Shown: positions 6,363 to 33,726 of the stretch, piece by piece
How the letters are laid out: every line of letters begins with the position of its first letter
Numbering within the stretch: position 1 is the first letter of the stretch
NCBI GenBank assembly: GCA_903889655.1
Contig: CAISYL010000223.1
Location: 1-33,927, forward strand
Direction of reading: 5' to 3'
DNA from: an uncultured Alphaproteobacteria bacterium
GTDB lineage: Bacteria; Pseudomonadota; Alphaproteobacteria; Parvibaculales; Parvibaculaceae
Length of the DNA stretch: 33,927 nt
The notes under the pieces: generated by a model
Told to the model about the DNA's origin: nothing
The model's input: the letters and a program-made list of their open reading frames with translations, nothing else
Database searches by the model: none
Translations under genes and position numbers: made by a program

Positions 6363-7970
6363 CTAAGCAGCCACCAAACCTGGCAGCGGCTTCGCCTTCC
6401 TCGACATCCGAGCCAAGGCTGGCTTCTCCCCACCGAAGTAGGGATTGGTCAGGCGCGGGTCGGCGGTGGAACCACTCCCACCGGATCGGGTGCTGAACAC
6501 CCTTCGCTTGCTGAACCGGCTCACCAGTTCCGCGAGGATCGCCGCCTTCGACTGGAACACGGAACCAATAGAGAGCGCACGGCGCTCCCCGATATTCCGT
6601 GACGCATTGACATCGGCGTGCATTCGAGAGCCGCACCACAGGCACCGGAAGGTGCCCTGTGACGGGCGATTTCGTTTGTCGACGTAGCCGCAGCACGAAC
6701 ATGTCTGCGACGTGTAGGCGGGATTGACCTCCTCCGAGACGATCCCGAAGCGGTCAGCCAAGTCGGCCAGTTTCGCCCGGATGACGGCGCGACCGCAGTT
6801 CTGGATGATGCGGTTCAGTCGCCGGGACAGAGCCGGGTTCTGGAAGTTCAGCCGCTCAAGGACGAGGGCGGCGGGCCGCCTGACCGCGACGAGCCGGTTC
6901 AGCACCCGGCCCACCTCGGTCCTGATCCAGCCCCGGAGCGCCGTCACCGCCTCCCGGTAGCGGGCGCTGTCGCGGGGCTTGCGACCCCGGCGCTGCTGCC
7001 CCTTTGCGATCTCGGCAATGCGGTGGTCGTAGGCGCGCAGGGCCTTGAGCCAATTCTGTCCGAGCAGAGCACCGTCATCCCCGGCGAACAGGGTGGAGAG
7101 GCCGAAATCCAGCGGCAGCACATCGCGCTCGGGCCGATAGGCGGCGCGAGACGCGGCGCATTCCTCCGCAATATCCGTCACCACCCCGAACATGACCCGC
7201 CCCGTGTCGCGGTCCTCGGTGATGAGGACACCGTTGCTGACCTTGCCCTTGCGGCTCTCGTGGCGGGCGTGGGTCAGCAGCGGAACGACGATCTTCTTGC
7301 CCGCCGTCATGGTGGACAGGTTCACCCACCAGCCAACCCGGCCATGCTGATTGGCCTTAGTCGGAGCCGAAAGGCAGGCGGCTCGGTGGTCGAGACGCAT
7401 GGAGATGTGGGACAGGTCCGGGCGGCGATGCTTGCCCATGACGTGGCGCATGATGGACCGGGCGAGGCTGCGGATGTGGTCGGGGATGATCTCCCCGGTG
7501 TCGCGCATCGCCACGTCCTTGCGGGCGAACCAAGCCCCGGCCCGGTTGATGACGTGCAGCATGTGCCGCGTGTCGGGGTCGAGGGTGCTGCCGTTCACCG
7601 TGTCTCGGAAGTCGTTGGCGCGGTTCGACAACCACGAGTCCAACTGGCCCACCACCTGCCACCGGCACATCTGGACCCGGTTGGCGGCACCGATCACGGC
7701 CGCGAACGTCACCTTGTCCACGTCGTGGGTCTTGTTGAACCGCCCCGTCTCGTGGAACAGGTGCCACTGATCCCGCCCGAGCAGCACCGCACCCTTCCGG
7801 TAGGCCGCGAGTAGGTCGCGGACGCGCGCATCCTTGCCCGCCGTCATGTTGGACGGCAGCAGGTCGCAGCGCATCACCGGGGGCGGGGCGTCCTTGGGGC
7901 GGAGGCTTCGTGGCATCAGGCCGCTTTCGCCGTGAGGAACTGTTTCAATATCATGATGGCGATAGGTCAT
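6207..7970 (-). mobile_element. IS200/IS605-type element with tnpB only (copy 1)
   Basis: The right end is clear: a hairpin and GGATGTCAA finishing at 6207 on the minus strand, 40/40 identical to the solo end at 2354. The left end is not identifiable; it lies at or beyond the tnpB start. No tnpA is present, so movement would need a transposase in trans. Confidence 0.65.
6363..7970 (-). CDS. tnpB: TnpB-family RNA-guided endonuclease (long form, 535 aa)
   Basis: The protein has the split RuvC-like centre of TnpB: Asp in LPLDFGLSTLF (~residue 289), Glu in ALVLERLNF (~371) and Asp in MHADVNASRNI (~453). A zinc ribbon, CSCCG...CLWCG, lies between ~420 and 445. TnpB uses a guide RNA from the element's right end to cut DNA next to a short motif. 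At 535 residues it is longer than the usual ~370-420, with an extended N-terminal region and a ~75-residue tail after the last catalytic Asp. ATG 7970 overlaps the TGA of an upstream reading frame (ATGA), which supports this start; ATG 7916 is the alternative. Its guide would come from dotA sequence. Confidence 0.85.
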   Translation of the reverse strand: MTYRHHDIETVPHGESGLMPRSLRPKDAPPPVMRCDLLPSNMTAGKDARVRDLLAAYRKGAVLLGRDQWHLFHETGRFNKTHDVDKVTFAAVIGAANRVQMCRWQVVGQLDSWLSNRANDFRDTVNGSTLDPDTRHMLHVINRAGAWFARKDVAMRDTGEIIPDHIRSLARSIMRHVMGKHRRPDLSHISMRLDHRAACLSAPTKANQHGRVGWWVNLSTMTAGKKIVVPLLTHARHESRKGKVSNGVLITEDRDTGRVMFGVVTDIAEECAASRAAYRPERDVLPLDFGLSTLFAGDDGALLGQNWLKALRAYDHRIAEIAKGQQRRGRKPRDSARYREAVTALRGWIRTEVGRVLNRLVAVRRPAALVLERLNFQNPALSRRLNRIIQNCGRAVIRAKLADLADRFGIVSEEVNPAYTSQTCSCCGYVDKRNRPSQGTFRCLWCGSRMHADVNASRNIGERRALSIGSVFQSKAAILAELVSRFSKRRVFSTRSGGSGSTADPRLTNPYFGGEKPALARMSRKAKPLPGLVAA

Positions 7971-9740: not shown

Positions 9741-10316
9741 ATGGCCGTCAAAACGACTCCATTTGACGCTGCGCAATACATCGACACGCCTGAGGCGCAA
9801 GACGAACTGCTCCGCGATGCATTTGCGAGCAATGACGCGCACTACATCGCAAATGCACTTGGCGTAGTGGCCCGCGCGCGCGGCATGACTCAGGTGGCAA
9901 AGAACACGGATGTTACCCGCGAAGCGCTCTATAAAGCGCTGAGTACAGAAGGCGACCCCAAGCTCTCAACTTTTTTGAGCGTTCTGCAAGCCCTCCACCT
10001 TCAAATCGTGAGTCCGCTTAATACGGCCGATAAATTTCTTGGTTTGTCGATGGGAGAGATTCAGCACTTGAGTTGGACAAAGTGGAACTTTGTACAAAGC
10101 GAAGCCGACGCGGTCATTGAACTAAGGAAAATCGTCTCCCAGACTTTGTTTTTCCAATCAGACCTTGAAAAAACTGTGGCTTACGCTGACCGCATGGCCG
10201 CGATTCCGATCGCGGAGGCTGTTCTTGACAAGTCTCGACATGGGTCGCGGTGGAAATTTCGCTACAAACGCTTCCCACGCCACCAGATAAAGGAGCCCCA
10301 TCAGATTGGTGTTTGA
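9741..10316 (+). CDS. higA: HigA-like antitoxin with long C-terminal extension
   Basis: Residues 1-~92 are a standard antidote of the HigB-killer family: KTTPFDAAQYIDTPEAQDEL, then a helix-turn-helix (~50-75) with RGMTQVAKNTDVTREALYKAL and GDPKLSTFLSVLQALHLQI. Such antitoxins normally end here at about 95-105 residues. This one continues for about 95 more residues (from ~SPLNTADKFLGLS) with no family I recognise. The extension may be a real fused domain or the result of a rearrangement at the edge of the tnpB-2 element that follows. The ATG is one base after the toxin stop. Confidence 0.8.
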   Translation: MAVKTTPFDAAQYIDTPEAQDELLRDAFASNDAHYIANALGVVARARGMTQVAKNTDVTREALYKALSTEGDPKLSTFLSVLQALHLQIVSPLNTADKFLGLSMGEIQHLSWTKWNFVQSEADAVIELRKIVSQTLFFQSDLEKTVAYADRMAAIPIAEAVLDKSRHGSRWKFRYKRFPRHQIKEPHQIGV

Positions 10317-10490: not shown

Positions 10491-11699
10491 ATGACGATCA
10501 ACCGCAAAGCAGCATTGTTCCGCCTTTATCCGACGCCTGAGCAGGACGCTCAGATGGCGCAGATCGCGGGCGCTTGCAGGTTCGTCTACAATCTTGCCCT
10601 GGAGCAGCGCCGGGATTGGTGGCGCCCGGGCCGGAAATTCAACTCTGTCAGCCAATGCCGAGAAGTCACCGAGCTTCGGGCTCAAGTCGACTGGATCAAA
10701 GCGGCGCCGGTTGCCGCTCTGCAGCAAGCTTTGCGCGATCTCGACCGCGCCTATCAGAACTGGTGGGCGGGCCGGGCCGACTATCCAACGCCGCGGAAGA
10801 AAGGCTTCAACGACAGCTTCCGCTTTCCCGATCCGAACTATCTGACGTTGAGGCGGACAGGGAAATCGTCCGGGCAATTGAAGCTGCCAAAACTGGGCTG
10901 GGTCAGATTGCGCGGGTGGAGAGCACTGCCTGGCGACCTTCGCAACGTCACTGTTTCCCGCCGCGCGGGGCAATGGTTCGCCGCCATCCAGTGTGAACGG
11001 GAAATACCCGAACCGATCCCCTCGAGCTTGCCGTCAGTCGGCATCGACATGGGTGTAGCCGTCTTCGCCGCCCTCAGCGACGGCACCAGCATTGCGCCAG
11101 CCAATCACGGCAAGAAGGCTTTGCGCGCATTGCGCAAGGCGCAGCGAGCCCTGGCCCGCAAGCGCAAGGGTTCGGCAAATAGGCGGAAGGCCGTTCGTCG
11201 CGTTGCCAGAATTCACCAGCGGGTGGCGAACGCCCGCAAAGACTTCCTCCACAAGCACAGCACGACCATTGCCAAGAACCACGGGACGGTCGTCGTGGAG
11301 GCGCTGAACTTGCGGAACATGTCCGCTTCGGCGAAAGGGACGACCGAGAAGCCGGGCCGCAAGGTTCGGCAGAAAGCCGGACTGAATCGCGCCATCCTCG
11401 ATCAGGGATGGGGCGCGTTCCGCATCATGCTCGCCTACAAGCTGGCGGATCGCGGCGGTCGATTGGTGGAAGTGCCGGCCGCCTACACCAGCCAGACCTG
11501 CTCGGCCTGCGGAGTAGTGGACTCCGCCAGCCGAGTCAGCCAGGCAGTGTTCGCCTGCTCGGGTTGCGGCCACACCGCCAACGCCGACACCAATGCGGCG
11601 ATCAACATTCTACGGCGCGCGGACAGCGCGTTGAAGCCTGTGGAGGGTCACCGCGTTGTGCGGCCCGGTGAAGCAGGAACCAGCCGGAGCGCCGCATGA
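10491..11699 (+). CDS. tnpB: TnpB-family RNA-guided endonuclease (402 aa)
   Basis: This is a TnpB of normal length. The N-terminus (INRKAALFRLYPTPEQDAQM) is the family's wedge-domain start. The RuvC-like residues are Asp in VGIDMGVAVF (~186), Glu in VVVEALNLRNM (~269) and Asp in NADTNAAINIL (~365), and the zinc ribbon is CSACG...CSGCG (~335-357). ATG 10491 has GGAGAG directly upstream. It is not a close copy of the 535-residue tnpB-1: the right ends are shared (36/40) but the proteins differ widely. Its guide would come from the bases after 11743, which are a fragment of an icmV gene. Confidence 0.9.
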   Translation: MTINRKAALFRLYPTPEQDAQMAQIAGACRFVYNLALEQRRDWWRPGRKFNSVSQCREVTELRAQVDWIKAAPVAALQQALRDLDRAYQNWWAGRADYPTPRKKGFNDSFRFPDPNYLTLRRTGKSSGQLKLPKLGWVRLRGWRALPGDLRNVTVSRRAGQWFAAIQCEREIPEPIPSSLPSVGIDMGVAVFAALSDGTSIAPANHGKKALRALRKAQRALARKRKGSANRRKAVRRVARIHQRVANARKDFLHKHSTTIAKNHGTVVVEALNLRNMSASAKGTTEKPGRKVRQKAGLNRAILDQGWGAFRIMLAYKLADRGGRLVEVPAAYTSQTCSACGVVDSASRVSQAVFACSGCGHTANADTNAAINILRRADSALKPVEGHRVVRPGEAGTSRSAA

Positions 11700-14959: not shown

Positions 14960-15020
14960 AAAAACTTGCGGTCCGCATATCCGAGTGCATGTCTTCTGCA
15001 GCACAACGGAGGTTTCGACC

Positions 15021-15317
15021 ATGGCTCTTACGCCCCCCACTCCCTCGAAAAGCGCCGCCGACCAGCTCAAGGCGCTTCAGGTGAAGCATCAGGCCCTGAA
15101 GGACCGGAAAATTCGGCTTCAGACAGAGATGGAAACGGCACAGCGCGAGCTCGCTGCCGCCCAGCGGGAGGCGGAAGAGGCCTTCGGCACTTCCGATGTC
15201 GATCAGCTGCGCAATCTCTACGATGAGACCGAGCGCGAGAACGCGGCGAAAATCGAGGCTTTCGGCGCGCAACTCGCCGATATCGAAAAGATGCTGAACG
15301 AGGGGCTGGGACAGTGA
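15021..15317 (+). CDS. small coiled-coil protein, first gene of the SbcCD-like operon
   Basis: This 98-residue protein starts MALTPPTPSKSAADQLKALQ at ATG 15021 with ACGGAGG about 8 nt upstream. Residues ~12-60 and ~65-95 are charged heptad-rich helices (LQTEMETAQRELAAAQREAE), a typical coiled coil. Its stop codon overlaps the GTG start of the Rad50-like gene (GTGA), so the two are translationally coupled. Because the next protein starts with another coiled coil, this one may act as the separate distal part of the ATPase's returning arm or as a clamp on it (inference). No known family is claimed. Confidence 0.75.
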   Translation: MALTPPTPSKSAADQLKALQVKHQALKDRKIRLQTEMETAQRELAAAQREAEEAFGTSDVDQLRNLYDETERENAAKIEAFGAQLADIEKMLNEGLGQ

Positions 15318-17221
15318 CTATGCGCGAGGCCGATCTGCGAGATCAGACGCGACGTCTCCTGACCCGGCTCGATCGGGCCGGCGGCGAACTCGAAGCCCTG
15401 CGCCGGCGCGACGAGGAATTGACGCTTGCCGTCGGTCTCGCCAAGGGACGCATGGATCGCAAGGATGCGGTCGCTGATTATCTGGATCGACTCCAGTCCG
15501 CCGCTCACGAGCGCAACGTCGGATCCTACGAACGTCTGCTCACCGGACTGGTCTCCGACATTATCGAGACGGAGAGCAAAGTCGGCCTGGAGCTCTCGAC
15601 CGAGCGCGGTCTGCCGTCCCTCGAAATCTTCATGAAGCCCGCCGAAGACCTCCGCGAAGACATCATGGACGGCAACGGTGGCGCGCTCACGAACGTGATC
15701 TGCCTCGGTCTGCGCGCGATCGCGACCGCGAAAGCCCACAAACGCATGTTCATGGCCCTGGACGAGCCGGATTGCTGGGTCGAGCGCGGGCGTATCGAGC
15801 GCTTTTATTCGGTCATCAAGCAGCTCGCCAGTTCGATCGGGCTTCAATGCCTCTTCATTGCCCATCACGACATCTCCGCCTTCACTGATGGGATTGCGGT
15901 ATCGCGCCTATCCGCCGCATCCGATGGCGCTCTGGTTCTCGAAAAAGACCCCCGCGCCGCGAAATGGGCGAGCGATGACCAGCCCGGCATTCGCTTCATC
16001 CGGCTCGTGAACTTCATGAGCCATGTCGACACGATGCTCACCCTTTCACCGGGCGTCAACGCGCTGCTCGGCTCGGTCAACCTCGGGAAGAGCGTCTTCA
16101 TGCGCGCGCTGCGCGCCGCCGCCTACGGCGAATCCGCGGACAGCGACATCAGGCACGGCGAGAAGCGGCTCGAGGCGCATTTCGGACTGGAATACGGGCG
16201 AACCCTCATCTTCTCCCGCGAGAAGAAGCGGAGCCCCGTGAACCTCTGGACAGTGATCGATGCCCAGGGCCAGGTGGTCGAAGAAAACGGCACCCGTTAC
16301 GAAACCGGCGGACGGAACGTTCCCGACTGGGTCGAGCGGGTTCTCCAGATGCCGATGATGGATGGCCTCGACATTCATGTCTCGCACCAGAAGAAGCCGG
16401 TCTTTCTTCTCGGCGACAACGCCAGCAAACGCGCTTCCGTCCTCTCGGTCGGCCAGGAATCGAGCCACATCCAGGCCATGATCGCCCGCCACAAGGAATG
16501 GTGCACCGCGGACAACGCGACCGTTCGAAATGGCGAAAAGGAACTCGGCTCCATTCGGGCCAGGATCGCAGCGATCGAGCCCCTCGAAGAGCTTCGTCCG
16601 GCACTCGCGGCGGTGGGCGAGGGGCTGACGAGCCTCGCCGCGGAGCAGAACAAGGTCGCCCAGATGACGGCCGCCAGCGGGCGGATCGTGGAAAGAGCTT
16701 CCGGGCTGCAGGACGTTCGCGCGCAGCTCGCGGCCCTCGACGGTCTGCCCGATGAGGCGCCCATCATCACGGATACGGCCTCTCTGCTCGCCATCGGCCG
16801 CCGCCTGCGTGCCCGTACCTTGGCGATCGACACTTGCGCGGGGAGCTTGGTCGCGCTGGAAGCTCTCCCCGACACATCGCCAAGCGTCACCGAAGTGGAG
16901 CCGATCCACGCGGCTGGCCGGAAAATCGCCGACGCGTCGCAACGGGCGCAAACAGCCACACGCTTGCTCACGGCCTTGTCCGCGATCCCTGATGCAGCAC
17001 CAGCGCTGTCTGACGGCGCTGCGATGAGGACCGTCCAAAGCCGCCTCGACACCCTGACGGCGACCATCGAAGACAAGCAACGTGAACTCGTCGCTGTCGA
17101 CGATGAAATCTCGGTGTGCAGGGCCGAAGCTGGCAAGACGCTCGAGCTCACCGGCGGTCGTTGCCCCACGTGCAACGGCGGCATCGACGACATCGATCAC
17201 CTTCTTCACGCGGCGGATTGA
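15314..17221 (+). CDS. Rad50/SbcC-like ATPase with permuted domain order
   Basis: All Rad50/SbcC parts are present in an unusual order. Residues 1-~65 are coiled coil. The half that is normally C-terminal follows: a signature-like GNGGALTNVICLGLR (~118-132), Walker B and D-loop RMFMALDEPD (~143-152), and the H-loop in LFIAHHD (~179-185). Only then comes the normally N-terminal half: IRFIRLVNFMSHVDT (~227-241), Walker A LLGSVNLGKSVFMRAL (~250-265) and a Q-loop-like HVSHQKKPVFLL (~355-366). A long helical arm (~385-610) ends in a CPTC zinc-hook motif (~617-620), 15 residues from the C-terminus. The arm holds about three ~41-residue repeats of the type ALxxLPDxxPxxTD. GTG 15314 has GAGGGG upstream; ATG 15320 is the alternative. 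The Mre11-like partner follows after 2 bp. Confidence 0.87.
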   Translation: MTMREADLRDQTRRLLTRLDRAGGELEALRRRDEELTLAVGLAKGRMDRKDAVADYLDRLQSAAHERNVGSYERLLTGLVSDIIETESKVGLELSTERGLPSLEIFMKPAEDLREDIMDGNGGALTNVICLGLRAIATAKAHKRMFMALDEPDCWVERGRIERFYSVIKQLASSIGLQCLFIAHHDISAFTDGIAVSRLSAASDGALVLEKDPRAAKWASDDQPGIRFIRLVNFMSHVDTMLTLSPGVNALLGSVNLGKSVFMRALRAAAYGESADSDIRHGEKRLEAHFGLEYGRTLIFSREKKRSPVNLWTVIDAQGQVVEENGTRYETGGRNVPDWVERVLQMPMMDGLDIHVSHQKKPVFLLGDNASKRASVLSVGQESSHIQAMIARHKEWCTADNATVRNGEKELGSIRARIAAIEPLEELRPALAAVGEGLTSLAAEQNKVAQMTAASGRIVERASGLQDVRAQLAALDGLPDEAPIITDTASLLAIGRRLRARTLAIDTCAGSLVALEALPDTSPSVTEVEPIHAAGRKIADASQRAQTATRLLTALSAIPDAAPALSDGAAMRTVQSRLDTLTATIEDKQRELVAVDDEISVCRAEAGKTLELTGGRCPTCNGGIDDIDHLLHAAD

Positions 17222-30893: not shown

Positions 30894-32039
30894 TCAAAGA
30901 AACAGAAGGCCGATGGGCGTTCCCGCCTCGACAGTGATGGTGGTCGGACGCGACCCATATTCCTGCTGGAGAATTTGACCAACCGCGCCGGCCGCGGTTC
31001 CCGTGGCCACCAGCGCCTTCTCGGTGCCGGAAAGAGTGGCATTCTGCGTCGTAGTGGAGCCGTAAGAGTTGACGGACGTGGATCCGGAGTTCGAAATCGC
31101 CTGACCCATCCCCTGAAGAAACGATGTCGTGAACGCGGTCGCGATCTTCTCCGCATAGTGATGGTCGACATCGGTCGCCAATCCGGTGCCGATGTACTTC
31201 GTGTCGACCGCCACCGCGTTGATCCCGACCGAGCCATTCACCTCGGTGCCGTCGCTCGTCGTCGCGACGGACATCTTCGAGAACTTGATCGACAGGCTAT
31301 CCCGACCCTTCTCGAACGATCCGACAACGATCGCGCCGGTATAAGGACCCTGAAGAACGCGAGCGATGACCGGCCCCGGACTGTCCGAATTGGCCGTGCT
31401 GATCGTCTCTGCATAGACAACCGTGCCCGCCAGCGGCAACGACAGTTTCGACGGGCTATCCTTGGTCGTGTGGTCTGCCGCGCTCGAAGAACTCGACGAT
31501 GACGTCTGCGCCGCTACGTCTTCGGAGGACGTCTTGGGCTCGGTATAAATGACAGCCGTGACCGGCTGTTCAACCGTGCGGGCCGCCAGGAGGGCTTTCA
31601 TACGCGCCTTCACCGCCTCGACCTGCTCCTGATTGACCTGGGCAATTGCCGCCTGTTGCACGCCGTTATCCGTCCGCGTGGGAAGCCCTCGCACCCCCGA
31701 CGTCGGCTCTGACGAGCCGGAAGGCCGTACAATCTCCGTCGGCGGCGGCGTCTGTGCGGCCGAGATGATCGTGGGGAACGCGCTTGCGCCTGAAGACTGC
31801 GCCGCGTCGATCCGGCGCTGATCCGCCGAACCGACTGCTTTCACGTAGGCCGGGCTCGGTGCTTCGGTGCGGGCATCGCCATGACTGGGGACGGCGCGAA
31901 CGCTCGACTGCGTCGCGGCGTCCCTCGATCCGCCAAAAACGACATAGGAGATCGCGAGAGCGAGCACGATGCCGACAAATGCCAGCACCATGCGCGAGCG
32001 CCCGTCTGCCCAAATATTTTTGATGCTCTCCATGGTCAT
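30894..32039 (-). CDS. dotG: DotG/IcmE (TraO)-like VirB10-type channel protein
   Basis: The 381-residue protein has one N-terminal membrane helix (VLAFVGIVLALAISYVVFGG ~18-37), a Pro/Ser-rich periplasmic linker to ~195, and a VirB10/TrbI-type C-terminal domain (~200-381) with LPLAGTVVYAETISTANSDS and GPVIARVLQGPYTGAIVVGS; it ends GTPIGLLFL. DotG spans the envelope and forms the central channel. Legionella DotG is about 1050 residues because of a long repeat region, which is missing here, so this is the compact IncI/TraO-like form. The ATG overlaps the dotH stop (ATGA, 32036-32039). Confidence 0.87.
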   Translation of the reverse strand: MTMESIKNIWADGRSRMVLAFVGIVLALAISYVVFGGSRDAATQSSVRAVPSHGDARTEAPSPAYVKAVGSADQRRIDAAQSSGASAFPTIISAAQTPPPTEIVRPSGSSEPTSGVRGLPTRTDNGVQQAAIAQVNQEQVEAVKARMKALLAARTVEQPVTAVIYTEPKTSSEDVAAQTSSSSSSSAADHTTKDSPSKLSLPLAGTVVYAETISTANSDSPGPVIARVLQGPYTGAIVVGSFEKGRDSLSIKFSKMSVATTSDGTEVNGSVGINAVAVDTKYIGTGLATDVDHHYAEKIATAFTTSFLQGMGQAISNSGSTSVNSYGSTTTQNATLSGTEKALVATGTAAGAVGQILQQEYGSRPTTITVEAGTPIGLLFL

Positions 32040-33028
32040 TTCACCTCGATGGATGGATTCGGCGTCTGATCCGCAATATCGGAGAGCACGCTCACACTTT
32101 TCATTTGCCCGTTGTCCGAGAGAATGAGGACCGGAGCATCCTGCATCGCATAGACGTTCACACCGCTGACATTGCTGCTCTTGGCAGTGTAGGCGGGGCT
32201 CAGAAGGGTGTAGTCGGTCCGTACATAGACGTTGCCGTCATAGCTCCAGGCTTCAACGGCGCCCGAACTGGTCTTGAGCGACTTGGCACCGTCCGGCGGC
32301 GTTCCGTCGAGGAAGGAGAGCAACTTTGCGTCTTTCGTCGCGGGCAGCATCCCGACCGAGGAGACGTCATAAAGGGCCTTCGGTCCACGGGCCGCGACGC
32401 GCATGTCGAGCCGAAAGTCCACATCCTGGTAGCCGGATTCCAGAAGAAGCATAACGGGCACCGGATATCCGACCAGGGTCACGACAAGATTGCTCTGCGC
32501 GACATTCGCCTTCGGCGCCACCACAATGATGTTCGTCTCTCCGGGCTTGCCTGCGGGCTGCGCAGTGAACATGGCCGGGTTCCCCGTCGTGACCGATTGG
32601 ATTGGCCACGGCTGACCTGTGATGTCCGACACGGTCAGCGTGGAGGCATTGCCGAGCGCCATGTGAACCGTGGGAGGTGTCTCTCCCGGCTTCAGGCTGA
32701 GATCGATCGATCTCGAAATCGGTGTAATCGGCCCCTGCGGCGTGCCGGCCGCCGACTCCGTATCGCGAACGCCCTGCTCGAACTGCTTGATCTCATCTGG
32801 CGACATCGGGAGGATGCCCGACATCGCTTTCTGGAAAGCTGCATCCGGTTTTGGAGCGGCAGGGGCCGCTTTCTTGGCCGCCGCCTCCTCCGCAGCACCG
32901 GCTACCACCTCGGCCTGAGCCTCCGTCAAGGAGGCGCCGCCGGCGGCGTCCGCCGCGTGACCGTCGCTTGCTGCAAAAGGCAGACAGACGATAAAAGCAG
33001 CCAGTATGTGTTTCGGACTTGTGACCAT
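32036..33028 (-). CDS. dotH: DotH/IcmK (TraN)-like outer-membrane complex protein
   Basis: The 330-residue protein starts with a signal peptide (KHILAAFIVCLPFAASDGHA ~6-25, cleavage probably after AHA/HAA). The family core is clear: LKPGETPPTVHMALGNASTL (~112-131), TVSDITGQPWPI (~132-143), and later VTLVGYPVPVMLLLESG. DotH/IcmK is exported and forms the outer-membrane ring with DotC, DotD and DotG. It lies 29 bp after the dotI stop, and its own stop overlaps the dotG start. ATG 33028 has only a weak ribosome site, which would make coupling to dotI useful. Confidence 0.88.
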   Translation of the reverse strand: MVTSPKHILAAFIVCLPFAASDGHAADAAGGASLTEAQAEVVAGAAEEAAAKKAAPAAPKPDAAFQKAMSGILPMSPDEIKQFEQGVRDTESAAGTPQGPITPISRSIDLSLKPGETPPTVHMALGNASTLTVSDITGQPWPIQSVTTGNPAMFTAQPAGKPGETNIIVVAPKANVAQSNLVVTLVGYPVPVMLLLESGYQDVDFRLDMRVAARGPKALYDVSSVGMLPATKDAKLLSFLDGTPPDGAKSLKTSSGAVEAWSYDGNVYVRTDYTLLSPAYTAKSSNVSGVNVYAMQDAPVLILSDNGQMKSVSVLSDIADQTPNPSIEVK

Positions 33029-33057
33029 TATAACTCGCCAGCTCTCGGTTCGCGGTT

Positions 33058-33726
33058 TTACTTCACGATTACTTGCTCGATGCCAAGTCCTTCCGGATTT
33101 TCATCCGCCGGAACCTGCACCACGGTCACCGCCACGACGATGCTCTGCGTCGCTTCCTGTGTCGCACTCTGATATGTGATCAATAGCGGGACTTCCAACT
33201 TCCAGGCGTATCTGCCATCGACAAGACCCTGGTCGACGACGACGGCTGCTTTGGCCGGCGAGGCCGTCGCCACGTACATGTTCTTGATCACTGCATCCAG
33301 ATTGCCCTTTTCCTGCAGCGCCTGCCTGAACCCCTCCCAGCCGCCTGGCGTGAAATAGGTCCGCGACTGCTCGATCTCCTGCTGATAGTTCGCGAAAGAA
33401 AAGGTGAATGCCTGATTGACCGCATCGGTGCTCCACGTCAGCACGCGACTCGTGGACTGCACCGGCTGATCGAGCGCCTGGAGTTCGCGCGCGCGCCCCA
33501 TCGGATCGGACGCGAAGTATTTGTATTGAATGCCCTTCTGAGACAGCCACACATTCCCGGCCACCGAAACCGACAACGCGAAGAGCAGACCGATGATGAG
33601 GCGCATGTAGATCACATGCCGTTCCCGCGTCACCGCGTCCCGTGCCAGAGCGGTCGCCACCGCCTCGTCCGCCTGGGTTGCGATCGCAGGTGCTGTCTTT
33701 CTCTGCTGCGGCTTCGGCTTGGACAT
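33058..33726 (-). CDS. dotI: DotI/IcmL (TraM)-like type IVB inner-membrane protein
   Basis: The 222-residue protein has a short cytoplasmic N-terminus, one membrane helix (MRLIIGLLFALSVSVAGNVW ~41-60) and a periplasmic domain of the DotI/IcmL fold, with WSTDAVNQAFTFSFANYQQE (~98-117), YFTPGGWEGFRQAL (~124-137) and ..WKLEVPLLITYQSATQEATQ.. (~174-193). DotI forms inner-membrane rings in type IVB systems and is homologous to TraM of R64. It is the first gene of the minus-strand operon. ATG 33726 has AGGAA about 9 nt upstream. A 138-bp divergent region separates it from the gene at the right edge. Confidence 0.88.
   Translation of the reverse strand: MSKPKPQQRKTAPAIATQADEAVATALARDAVTRERHVIYMRLIIGLLFALSVSVAGNVWLSQKGIQYKYFASDPMGRARELQALDQPVQSTSRVLTWSTDAVNQAFTFSFANYQQEIEQSRTYFTPGGWEGFRQALQEKGNLDAVIKNMYVATASPAKAAVVVDQGLVDGRYAWKLEVPLLITYQSATQEATQSIVVAVTVVQVPADENPEGLGIEQVIVK

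Follow-up and report, generated by a model that had tools for sequence, protein, structure and literature searches.

A Rad50-like ATPase with circularly permuted halves and a terminal zinc-hook motif, encoded beside an Mre11-like nuclease in an uncultured alphaproteobacterium

In the usual picture of Rad50 and SMC proteins, one chain leaves the ATPase head, turns at a hook or hinge and returns. Here, we have analysed a stretch of 33,927 nucleotides from an uncultured alphaproteobacterium of the Parvibaculaceae (assembly GCA_903889655.1, contig CAISYL010000223.1; the window) and show that it encodes a Rad50-like ATPase in which the two halves of the head are swapped and the CPxC zinc-hook motif lies near the end of the chain. 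The catalytic residues outside the signature motif are kept even though the chain is interrupted at the hook and the halves of the head are connected in the opposite sense. The gene stands between a small gene, which we call S, and a gene for an Mre11/SbcD-like nuclease, and the permuted layout is common to dozens of bacteria and large plasmids. Below, A denotes the part with the Walker A lobe, the outgoing arm and the CxxC tip, and C the part with the signature and the Walker B lobe; the window protein is the fusion C::A. Coordinates are collected in Table 1.

Order of the motifs in the ATPase

Along the chain, the degenerate signature region of the ATP-binding cassette (ABC), Walker B and the H-loop come first, Walker A follows, and the CPTC motif of the hook comes last. 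This is the order that an earlier note, made from the letters of this DNA, had claimed, with positions that are correct to within a few residues. The residues that are invariant in a 12-row alignment include G123, D150, E151, H184, G258, K259, Q359, C617 and C620. The swap of the halves is borne out by Rad50 profiles, which place both in reversed order: residues 9-186 align with positions 676-853 of 883 in the Rad50 model NF041035 (E 2e-8) and residues 226-344 with positions 3-121 of 878 in NF003034 (E 3.6e-6), both E-values being those of the whole protein and the scores lying far below the curated cut-offs. PHROG 16465 matches residues 225-447 (E 1.6e-14), a separate family, PHROG 15167, matches residues 4-190 (E 0.0014), and Pfam AAA_23 is above its cut-off solely on residues 229-335. 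The note was also right to describe the hook as a free chain end 15 residues from the C-terminus, since CPTC occupies residues 617-620 of 635 and is conserved in the relatives.

Two of its claims stood only in part. All catalytic motifs had been called intact, and indeed the glycine and lysine of Walker A, the Asp-Glu pair of Walker B, H184 and Q359 are invariant in the 12 rows, so that Walker A, Walker B and the H-loop are present as in Rad50/SbcC. The signature, however, is not LSGGE: it keeps GG (SG in locus L011) without the Ser and Glu. Among the 73 permuted loci described below, the residue before GG is N in 56, K in 5, C in 4, Q in 3, R in 3, S in 1 and E in 1, so that the Ser position is occupied by N, K, C, Q, R or E in 72 of 73; the residue after GG, at the Glu position, is A in 60, S in 11 and G in 2, which accounts for 73 of 73. 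The signature serine is important in canonical Rad50. Because it is absent here, ATP engagement may be altered. The chain had further been pictured as cut just after the hook with the old termini joined; the order is permuted in this way, but only a 44-residue helix precedes the first lobe and only 15 residues follow the hook, so that more than the opening and rejoining of a Rad50 must be involved.

Conservation and distribution of the permuted form

Walker B lies ahead of Walker A in all 73 permuted loci, which comprise the window, 12 plasmids and 60 genome contigs; the N-terminal Walker A half and C-terminal Walker B half of Rad50/SbcC are reversed in every one of them. The CxxC motif lies 7-58 residues from the chain end in all 70 loci in which the end is present (CPxC in 69, CEKC in one). 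A tblastn search of 72,556 plasmid records matched 23, of which 17 align as a single piece, in the same order, over 80% or more of the query at 24-38% identity. The matching plasmids come from Bosea, Rhizobium, Methylorubrum, Acidiphilium, Variovorax, Pseudomonas and Vibrio, and on plasmids of Alteromonas and Aeromonas the match spans 56-73%. Permuted loci were read on 12 of these 23 records, including 6 of the 12 gammaproteobacterial ones. A scan of 84,980 species genomes gave 62 further loci, 60 permuted and 2 split or cut; it was seeded by a single Walker B pattern without demanding the order, and relatives with another Walker B were missed. L078 and L079 are excluded from the permuted counts. 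The relatives cannot be counted as independent of one another: Microvirga is named in 35 of the 62 titles, and L067 duplicates a Variovorax plasmid sequence.

The permuted form was not found in viruses: a profile scan of viral contigs matched 17 stretches, a second one that used the split C half of L079 as query matched 18, no relative was among either set, and the best 50 of 452 BFVD matches seem, from length and TM-score, to be halves, nuclease fusions or general SMC-like proteins. None of the 26 genomes that represent the rest of the genus has the protein. Across 385 sampled genomes of the class, with three candidates scored per genome, it is present in one, the own genome. Canonical SbcC was not recognised in the host genome, where the score of TIGR00618 is no higher than 19.4 bits, in a frame of 1158 codons; E 1e-60 is passed by 8 of the 60 genomes tested from the phylum, and none of these is the own genome or one of the 15 genomes of the same class.

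Predicted fold of the head and arm

AlphaFold2 modelled the ATPase from an alignment of 24 rows, the window and 23 of the 60 genome-contig loci, with a mean predicted local distance difference test score (pLDDT) of 81.6 and ten-residue means of 81-97 over residues 11-380. The modelled helices span residues 5-48 and 50-83 and then, after the second lobe, residues 381-475, followed by short helices and by residues 568-612 before the tip. The model has a single 44-residue helix ahead of the first lobe and is without a return arm after the tip; the CxxC motif does not stand between two antiparallel arm strands of one chain, as it does in Rad50/SbcC. Of DNA tandem repeats that might underlie the 40-residue period of the distal arm, only an 11-base trace was found, elsewhere in the gene.

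The head lobes have the Rad50 fold, the first lobe being less directly tested. The top PDB match in Foldseek is a Rad50 chain, with TM-scores by target length of 0.73 for 1f2u_B, 0.61 for 1f2u_C, 0.58 for 9a9j_A and 0.66 for 9a9j_B. Chain 1f2u_C aligns with model residues 224-367, and 1f2u_B we take to be the C-half chain of the same entry. Since 1f2u was presumably built from two separate Rad50 segments, an uninterrupted chain would not be needed for a Rad50 head. VIA places residues 224-378 on residues 1-161 of Rad50 with a Z of about 11; as SMC heads score equally and RecF only slightly lower, this result supports the SMC/Rad50 class and not Rad50 alone. Coiled-coil matches in VIA run from residues 2-8 to 443-475. 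Because they span both helices, they suggest indirectly that the N-terminal and outgoing helices lie side by side, which needs the two lobes to be together. From the conservation of the motifs, the confident fold of each half and the coil matches over both arm helices, the two halves would be expected to form one ABC head.

The small gene S and the nuclease

The GTG start of the ATPase gene overlaps the stop codon of S by 4 bases. S lies upstream of the ATPase in 73 of 73 permuted loci according to its profile, with the weakest match at E 1.1e-8 (L038); the profiles of S and of the nuclease were each seeded from 10 of the 73 loci. From an alignment of the window and 20 loci (L079 among them), AlphaFold2 modelled S with a mean pLDDT of 91.9, and the glycine in the turn of the hairpin, G56, is invariant in these 21 rows. 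Profile libraries gave S only weak coiled-coil-type matches, none above a curated cut-off. This third conserved member of the operon appears as 'hypothetical protein' in the records. No natural fusion of S to C was seen: long open reading frames in L011, L057, L059 and L065, considered as such, turned out to be start extensions with a separate S frame.

An Mre11-like nuclease gene follows in the operon, as the earlier note had seen, and the window protein carries all five motifs expected of the Mre11/SbcD partner in Rad50/SbcC systems. Of the 73 permuted loci, 70 have the nuclease downstream, and the remaining three (L060, L066 and L076) are those whose ATPase frame itself leaves the contig. 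In L040 it is present in one frame only as a 215-residue piece, the nucleases of L070 and L071 read GSHD, and the weakest match among the permuted loci has E 6.9e-4 (L014). On the gammaproteobacterial plasmids examined, six relatives in all (three from Pseudomonas and one each from Vibrio, Alteromonas and Aeromonas), GNHD and GHxH are gone and D-x-H is broken, while Walker A, Walker B and CxxC are retained. The assignment as nuclease is weak for Alteromonas and Aeromonas (E 1e-5 and 6.9e-4). These six relatives form one clade (support 99/95), and L075, a Moraxellaceae contig outside that clade, has intact nuclease motifs. Since the motifs were lost in this clade, end processing is not common to all relatives. 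We argue that tethering is the shared function, because the complex of that clade can hardly be a nuclease of the Mre11 type.

Split relatives and the probable origin of the permuted gene

In phages and in plasmids of other bacteria, a split Rad50 is encoded by separate A, S and C genes, while the window protein is C::A in one chain. Bacillus phage vB_BboS-125 (gp32, gp34 and gp35) has a 471-residue Walker A gene ending in CPLC, a 78-residue coil and a 211-residue Walker B gene; like in the window, A closes at CxxC, the small coil gene lies beside C and a nuclease is near. The same split set is found on plasmids of Bacillus, Geobacillus, Aneurinibacillus, Brevibacillus and Alkaliphilus, three of them with the nuclease fused before A. 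The A chain is closed by CxxC in 16 of 16 split rows, and S stands upstream of C wherever it was recognised, mostly directly, with a clamp-like gene (by eye) between them in L081; the S of L007 and of L016 was identified by eye and not by profile. Both marks of this group are found in the permuted loci as well, namely S beside the C half (73 of 73) and an A half that has CxxC at its chain end (70 of 70). Related records give the C half the name ATPase, chromosome segregation protein or ParA. Two phages have genes that by eye are RecA-like and clamp-like in the neighbourhood of split Rad50 parts (L007:2598-3746 and L081:2813-3946).

A search with the C half brought up 28 viral contigs (L086-L113), many of them near copies, and all 28 have the gene order A-S-C-nuclease. 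These contigs share with L008, L015 and L082-L085 the succession A, S, C, collinear with canonical Rad50. As this order follows canonical Rad50 from end to end, it suggests that S was once part of the return arm and became detached. L079, a contig of 1.1 Mb from a metagenome-assembled genome, and L007, from a Microcystis phage, have the order A-nuclease-S-C. Read circularly, it equals the order S-C::A-nuclease of the window, so that the permuted gene would result from a tandem duplication in which C was fused to the A that follows it. The unfused intermediate, S-C-A, was not found among the loci examined. Microbacterium phage Magritte (L080) was considered as such and rejected, the next ATPase being clamp-loader-like by eye (annotated 'ASCE ATPase'); neither A nor S was recognised in its 4.9-kb stretch.

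We built a tree of 47 rows and 382 columns of both lobes, in which 27 of the 73 permuted loci and 14 split loci, picked for diversity, were included. The 27 permuted rows form one clade (97/92), the split L079 is their sister (96/90) and the other split forms lie outside. The permuted and split rows together are separated from canonical SbcC and T4 gp46, where the tree is rooted (97/96), and the fused rows stay together at 92/87 when three long rows are left out. A single origin of the permuted form is thus supported. That the protein was split first, and that two already separate genes were then fused, is favoured but not proven over one cut-and-join of a whole Rad50.

Comparison with known systems

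With canonical Rad50/SbcC (E. coli SbcC, T4 gp46 and archaeal Rad50), the window system shares the lobes, Walker A and B, the H-loop, the CPxC tip, a long helical arm and the gene for an Mre11/SbcD-like partner. It differs in that the halves are swapped, CPxC is near the chain end and most of the return arm is absent from the chain; it also has GG[ASG]xxN instead of LSGGE, the extra gene S and a His-rich tail. Since three defining features depart from Rad50/SbcC (the signature, the order of the halves and a hook between arm strands), we do not file it as Rad50/SbcC proper. We regard it as a permuted member of the split Rad50 group, which would work in a Rad50-like way as far as anatomy tells.

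Rad50 variants made by gene fusion are known from mobile elements, where a nuclease is fused to Rad50 and, according to the section concerned, precedes the Walker A half (Yoshida et al. 2011, PMC3175470); the window protein shares with them a probable origin by gene fusion, the fused parts being different. The same section states of protein A7KV18 of Bacillus phage 0305phi8-36 that one P-loop segment 'was not observed', and it describes no permutation (PMC3175470). A7KV18 is the top viral fold match of the window ATPase in BFVD, and it would fit a nuclease::A gene with a separate C-half gene. The archaea-specific SMC-related proteins (ASRP) have, like the window protein, an SMC-type head and a zinc hook, and match it weakly by profile (E 1.3e-5), but in the part of the source that treats them they keep the usual order, with Walker A N-terminal and Walker B C-terminal (PMC9389158). 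In the relevant passages of two further papers, circular permutation is mentioned solely for DNA methylases (PMC7824862, PMC10853773). No description of a permuted or split Rad50/SbcC was found in the passages of the literature searched, subscription papers and preprints lying outside that literature.

Proposed organisation and role of the complex

Taken as a whole, the locus probably encodes an Mre11-Rad50-type DNA-end complex with a circularly permuted Rad50-like subunit. For head assembly, the role of S, dimerisation, activity, cellular function and the direction of evolution, what follows is what we infer. Gene C, with the signature/Walker B lobe and a short arm, would have been fused to gene A, with the Walker A lobe, the outgoing arm and the CPxC tip, so that one chain could make the whole ABC head via a short linker and the zinc tip would be a free chain end. 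S would supply the missing stretch of the return arm in trans, as a hairpin packed along the 95-residue outgoing helix where the 44-residue stub no longer reaches. ATP would bring two heads together as a dimer, with the nuclease at the base of the arms, and the CPxC tips may join arms or complexes and so hold DNA ends.

The genes for DNA polymerase III alpha, UvrD and DotH/IcmK-, DotI/IcmL- and TrbI-like proteins make it most likely that the window is plasmid DNA with conjugation genes. T4 gp46/gp47 act in recombination-dependent replication, as stated in a part of the source (PMC3175470). On megaplasmids with their own replication and repair genes, the complex would most likely serve recombination-dependent replication and break repair of the plasmid. 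For the cellular role as such, plasmid-encoded tethering and processing of DNA ends is the assignment we lean towards with moderate confidence; of the permuted layout itself we are nearly certain.

Several observations weigh against this explanation. The Ser and Glu of LSGGE are missing from the ATPase signature, and the nuclease motifs are lost in six of six gammaproteobacterial plasmid relatives. The predicted template modelling score (pTM) of the ATPase model is 0.59, and residues 477-529 are below a pLDDT of 50. In VIA, the Walker A lobe fits SMC and RecF heads about as closely as it fits Rad50, and unrelated coiled coils reach Z 9 to 11.5; the comparison covered mainly residues 217-455, so that the first lobe rests on the Foldseek chain matches. 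The contact of the two halves with each other, and that of S with the arm, are putative. PLSDB types 23 of 23 matching plasmid records as non-mobilizable, the label MPF_I being carried by 4 of those fetched. Finally, there are weak matches to defence models and a tree test that leaves the split forms free to group together, which are taken up below with the alternatives they favour.

Alternative explanations

The permuted order could in principle be an artefact of assembly or a frameshift, but nothing beyond its oddity speaks for this. Independent assemblies and complete plasmids show the same order in 73 of 73 loci with invariant catalytic residues, which excludes misassembly; we reject the artefact as vanishingly improbable. 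A more serious alternative concerns the path to the permuted gene. Canonical Rad50 may have been permuted directly, by tandem duplication and trimming, with the split forms arising later by fission. An approximately unbiased (AU) test does not reject all 14 split rows as one clade (p 0.157), the branches of the split L007 and L016 are long and their position in the tree is unsure, and the lack of an unfused S-C-A intermediate fits this path as well. Against it, the best tree has the split L079 as sister of the fused clade with the other split forms outside, the fused rows fall on one side of a branch without the three long rows, albeit at modest support, and A, S and C are collinear with canonical Rad50 in the viral contigs and the six further split loci. 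We therefore consider direct permutation unlikely, and favour splitting followed by fusion.

As for function, the operon might be a defence or anti-plasmid module of SMC-like type that targets foreign DNA and not the DNA of the plasmid itself. In outline, a nuclease, an SMC-like ATPase and a small protein do resemble defence operons, the window has a gene for a cytosine methylase a short way upstream, the distribution is patchy (1 of 385 class genomes), and there are weak matches to Mads, Gabija, Zorya and Jet models. These matches are weak and local, however, with a best E of 3.4e-4; cytosine methylase is annotated in 0 of 10 annotated plasmid stretches; the partner is Mre11-like; and the neighbours in the relatives include genes for topoisomerase, UvrD-type helicase, RecQ, RecJ, LigD and RdgC. 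A defence role appears improbable to us.

With the permuted Mre11-Rad50-type complex as the preferred reading, the family offers a natural test of how far the hook and the return arm matter, and its relatives include some with a naturally dead nuclease. A single-chain ABC head would be convenient for structural work. The fusion is also likely to be a worked example of circular permutation via gene splitting and re-fusion.

Table 1. Features of the permuted locus, its relatives and the rest of the window (residue numbers refer to the respective protein)
Feature	Coordinates	Strand	Basis or remark
Permuted Rad50-like ATPase, 635 aa	15314..17221	+	GTG 15314, alternative in-frame ATG 15320
Degenerate ABC signature region GGALTNVICLGLR, residues 122-134	15677..15715	+	Motif reading
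Walker B and start of D-loop, FMALDEPD, residues 146-153	15749..15772	+	D150, E151, D153 invariant (12 rows)
H-loop, H184/H185	15863..15868	+	H184 invariant (12 rows)
Approximate linker, about residues 210-224, old C-terminus to old N-terminus, junction of genes C/A	15941..15985	+	Inferred from modelled strand limits E207-210 and E228-234 and 12-row alignment
Walker A, GSVNLGKS, residues 253-260	16070..16093	+	G253, G258, K259 invariant (12 rows)
Q359, candidate Q-loop glutamine (our label)	16388..16390	+	Invariant in 12-row and 24-row alignments
Outgoing arm, predicted 95-residue helix, residues 381-475	16454..16738	+	AlphaFold2, DSSP
Distal arm with 40-residue period, L-x-x-[LI]-P-D-x-x-P at 475, 515 and 555; residues 475-587	16736..17074	+	Sequence pattern; pLDDT <50 in 477-529
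CPTC zinc-hook motif, residues 617-620 of 635	17162..17173	+	C617, C620 invariant (12 rows)
15-residue tail; H629 and H632 are putative additional zinc ligands	17174..17218	+	Sequence
S, 98-residue helical hairpin, helices 9-55 and 60-97, turn G56-T57	15021..15317	+	ATG 15021 behind GGAGG 15008-15012
Mre11/SbcD-like nuclease, 331 aa	17224..18219	+	Pfam Metallophos E 8.6e-8; motif table: GDPH, GDMFD, GNHD, THED, GHMH all present
Mre11-like partners that have lost the catalytic motifs, gammaproteobacterial plasmid relatives	L003:6724-7620, L004:6739-7647, L005:6854-7726, L006:6641-7417, L013:5751-6653, L014:5827-6600		
DNA polymerase III alpha, 1492 aa	22908-27386		About 250 residues before the PHP domain
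TrbI, DotH/IcmK, DotI/IcmL-like genes	30894-33726	-	
Two TnpB-like proteins	6363-7970 and 10491-11699		First: 535 aa, only TNB domain recognised
RES-domain protein and HI1420-type antidote protein	1721-2326 and 9741-10316		Candidate toxin-antitoxin parts
Pentapeptide-repeat protein, 543 residues	18377-20008		Behind the nuclease gene

The window begins at base 1 of its contig, in a genome of 4.36 Mb in 294 contigs.

The zinc-hook tip and its tail

Whether the tips pair or close on themselves is, in our opinion, the most interesting question in this family. In canonical complexes, the hook is described in the part of the source concerned as a dimerisation module (PMC6969161). The chain end of the permuted protein is His-rich, so that the tip may hold its own zinc. 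In the model, residues 616 and 623 form a bridge around CPTC, and a helix of residues 627-634 carries H629 and H632, at low confidence. One possible reading, which we would put forward only tentatively and think doubtful, is that of a Rad50 assembled from exchangeable modules, in which CPxC and an H-x-H tail at the free chain end make a self-sufficient, C2H2-like zinc site in one chain, with the tips partnerless or newly paired, S as return arm in trans and the nuclease-dead clade a pure tether.

The enrichment in histidine is seen across the relatives, where the tail is conserved in kind and not in exact sequence. In 27 proteins, His makes up 66 of 453 residues behind CxxC (14.6%) compared with 360 of 16,714 (2.2%) outside this stretch. 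Two or more His are present in 23 of these 27 tails and an H-x1-4-H pattern in 21; when random windows were drawn 2000 times from the same proteins, the corresponding counts averaged 1.9 and 0.6 and peaked at 7 and 4, which is no strict probability as the 27 rows are related. Among all loci with a chain end, the tail has at least two His in 65 of 70 and none in 2. At least two tail His are found in 4 of 16 split forms, and the 25 residues behind the hook contain one His in E. coli SbcC, in T4 gp46 and in three of four other SbcC proteins, and two in the fourth.

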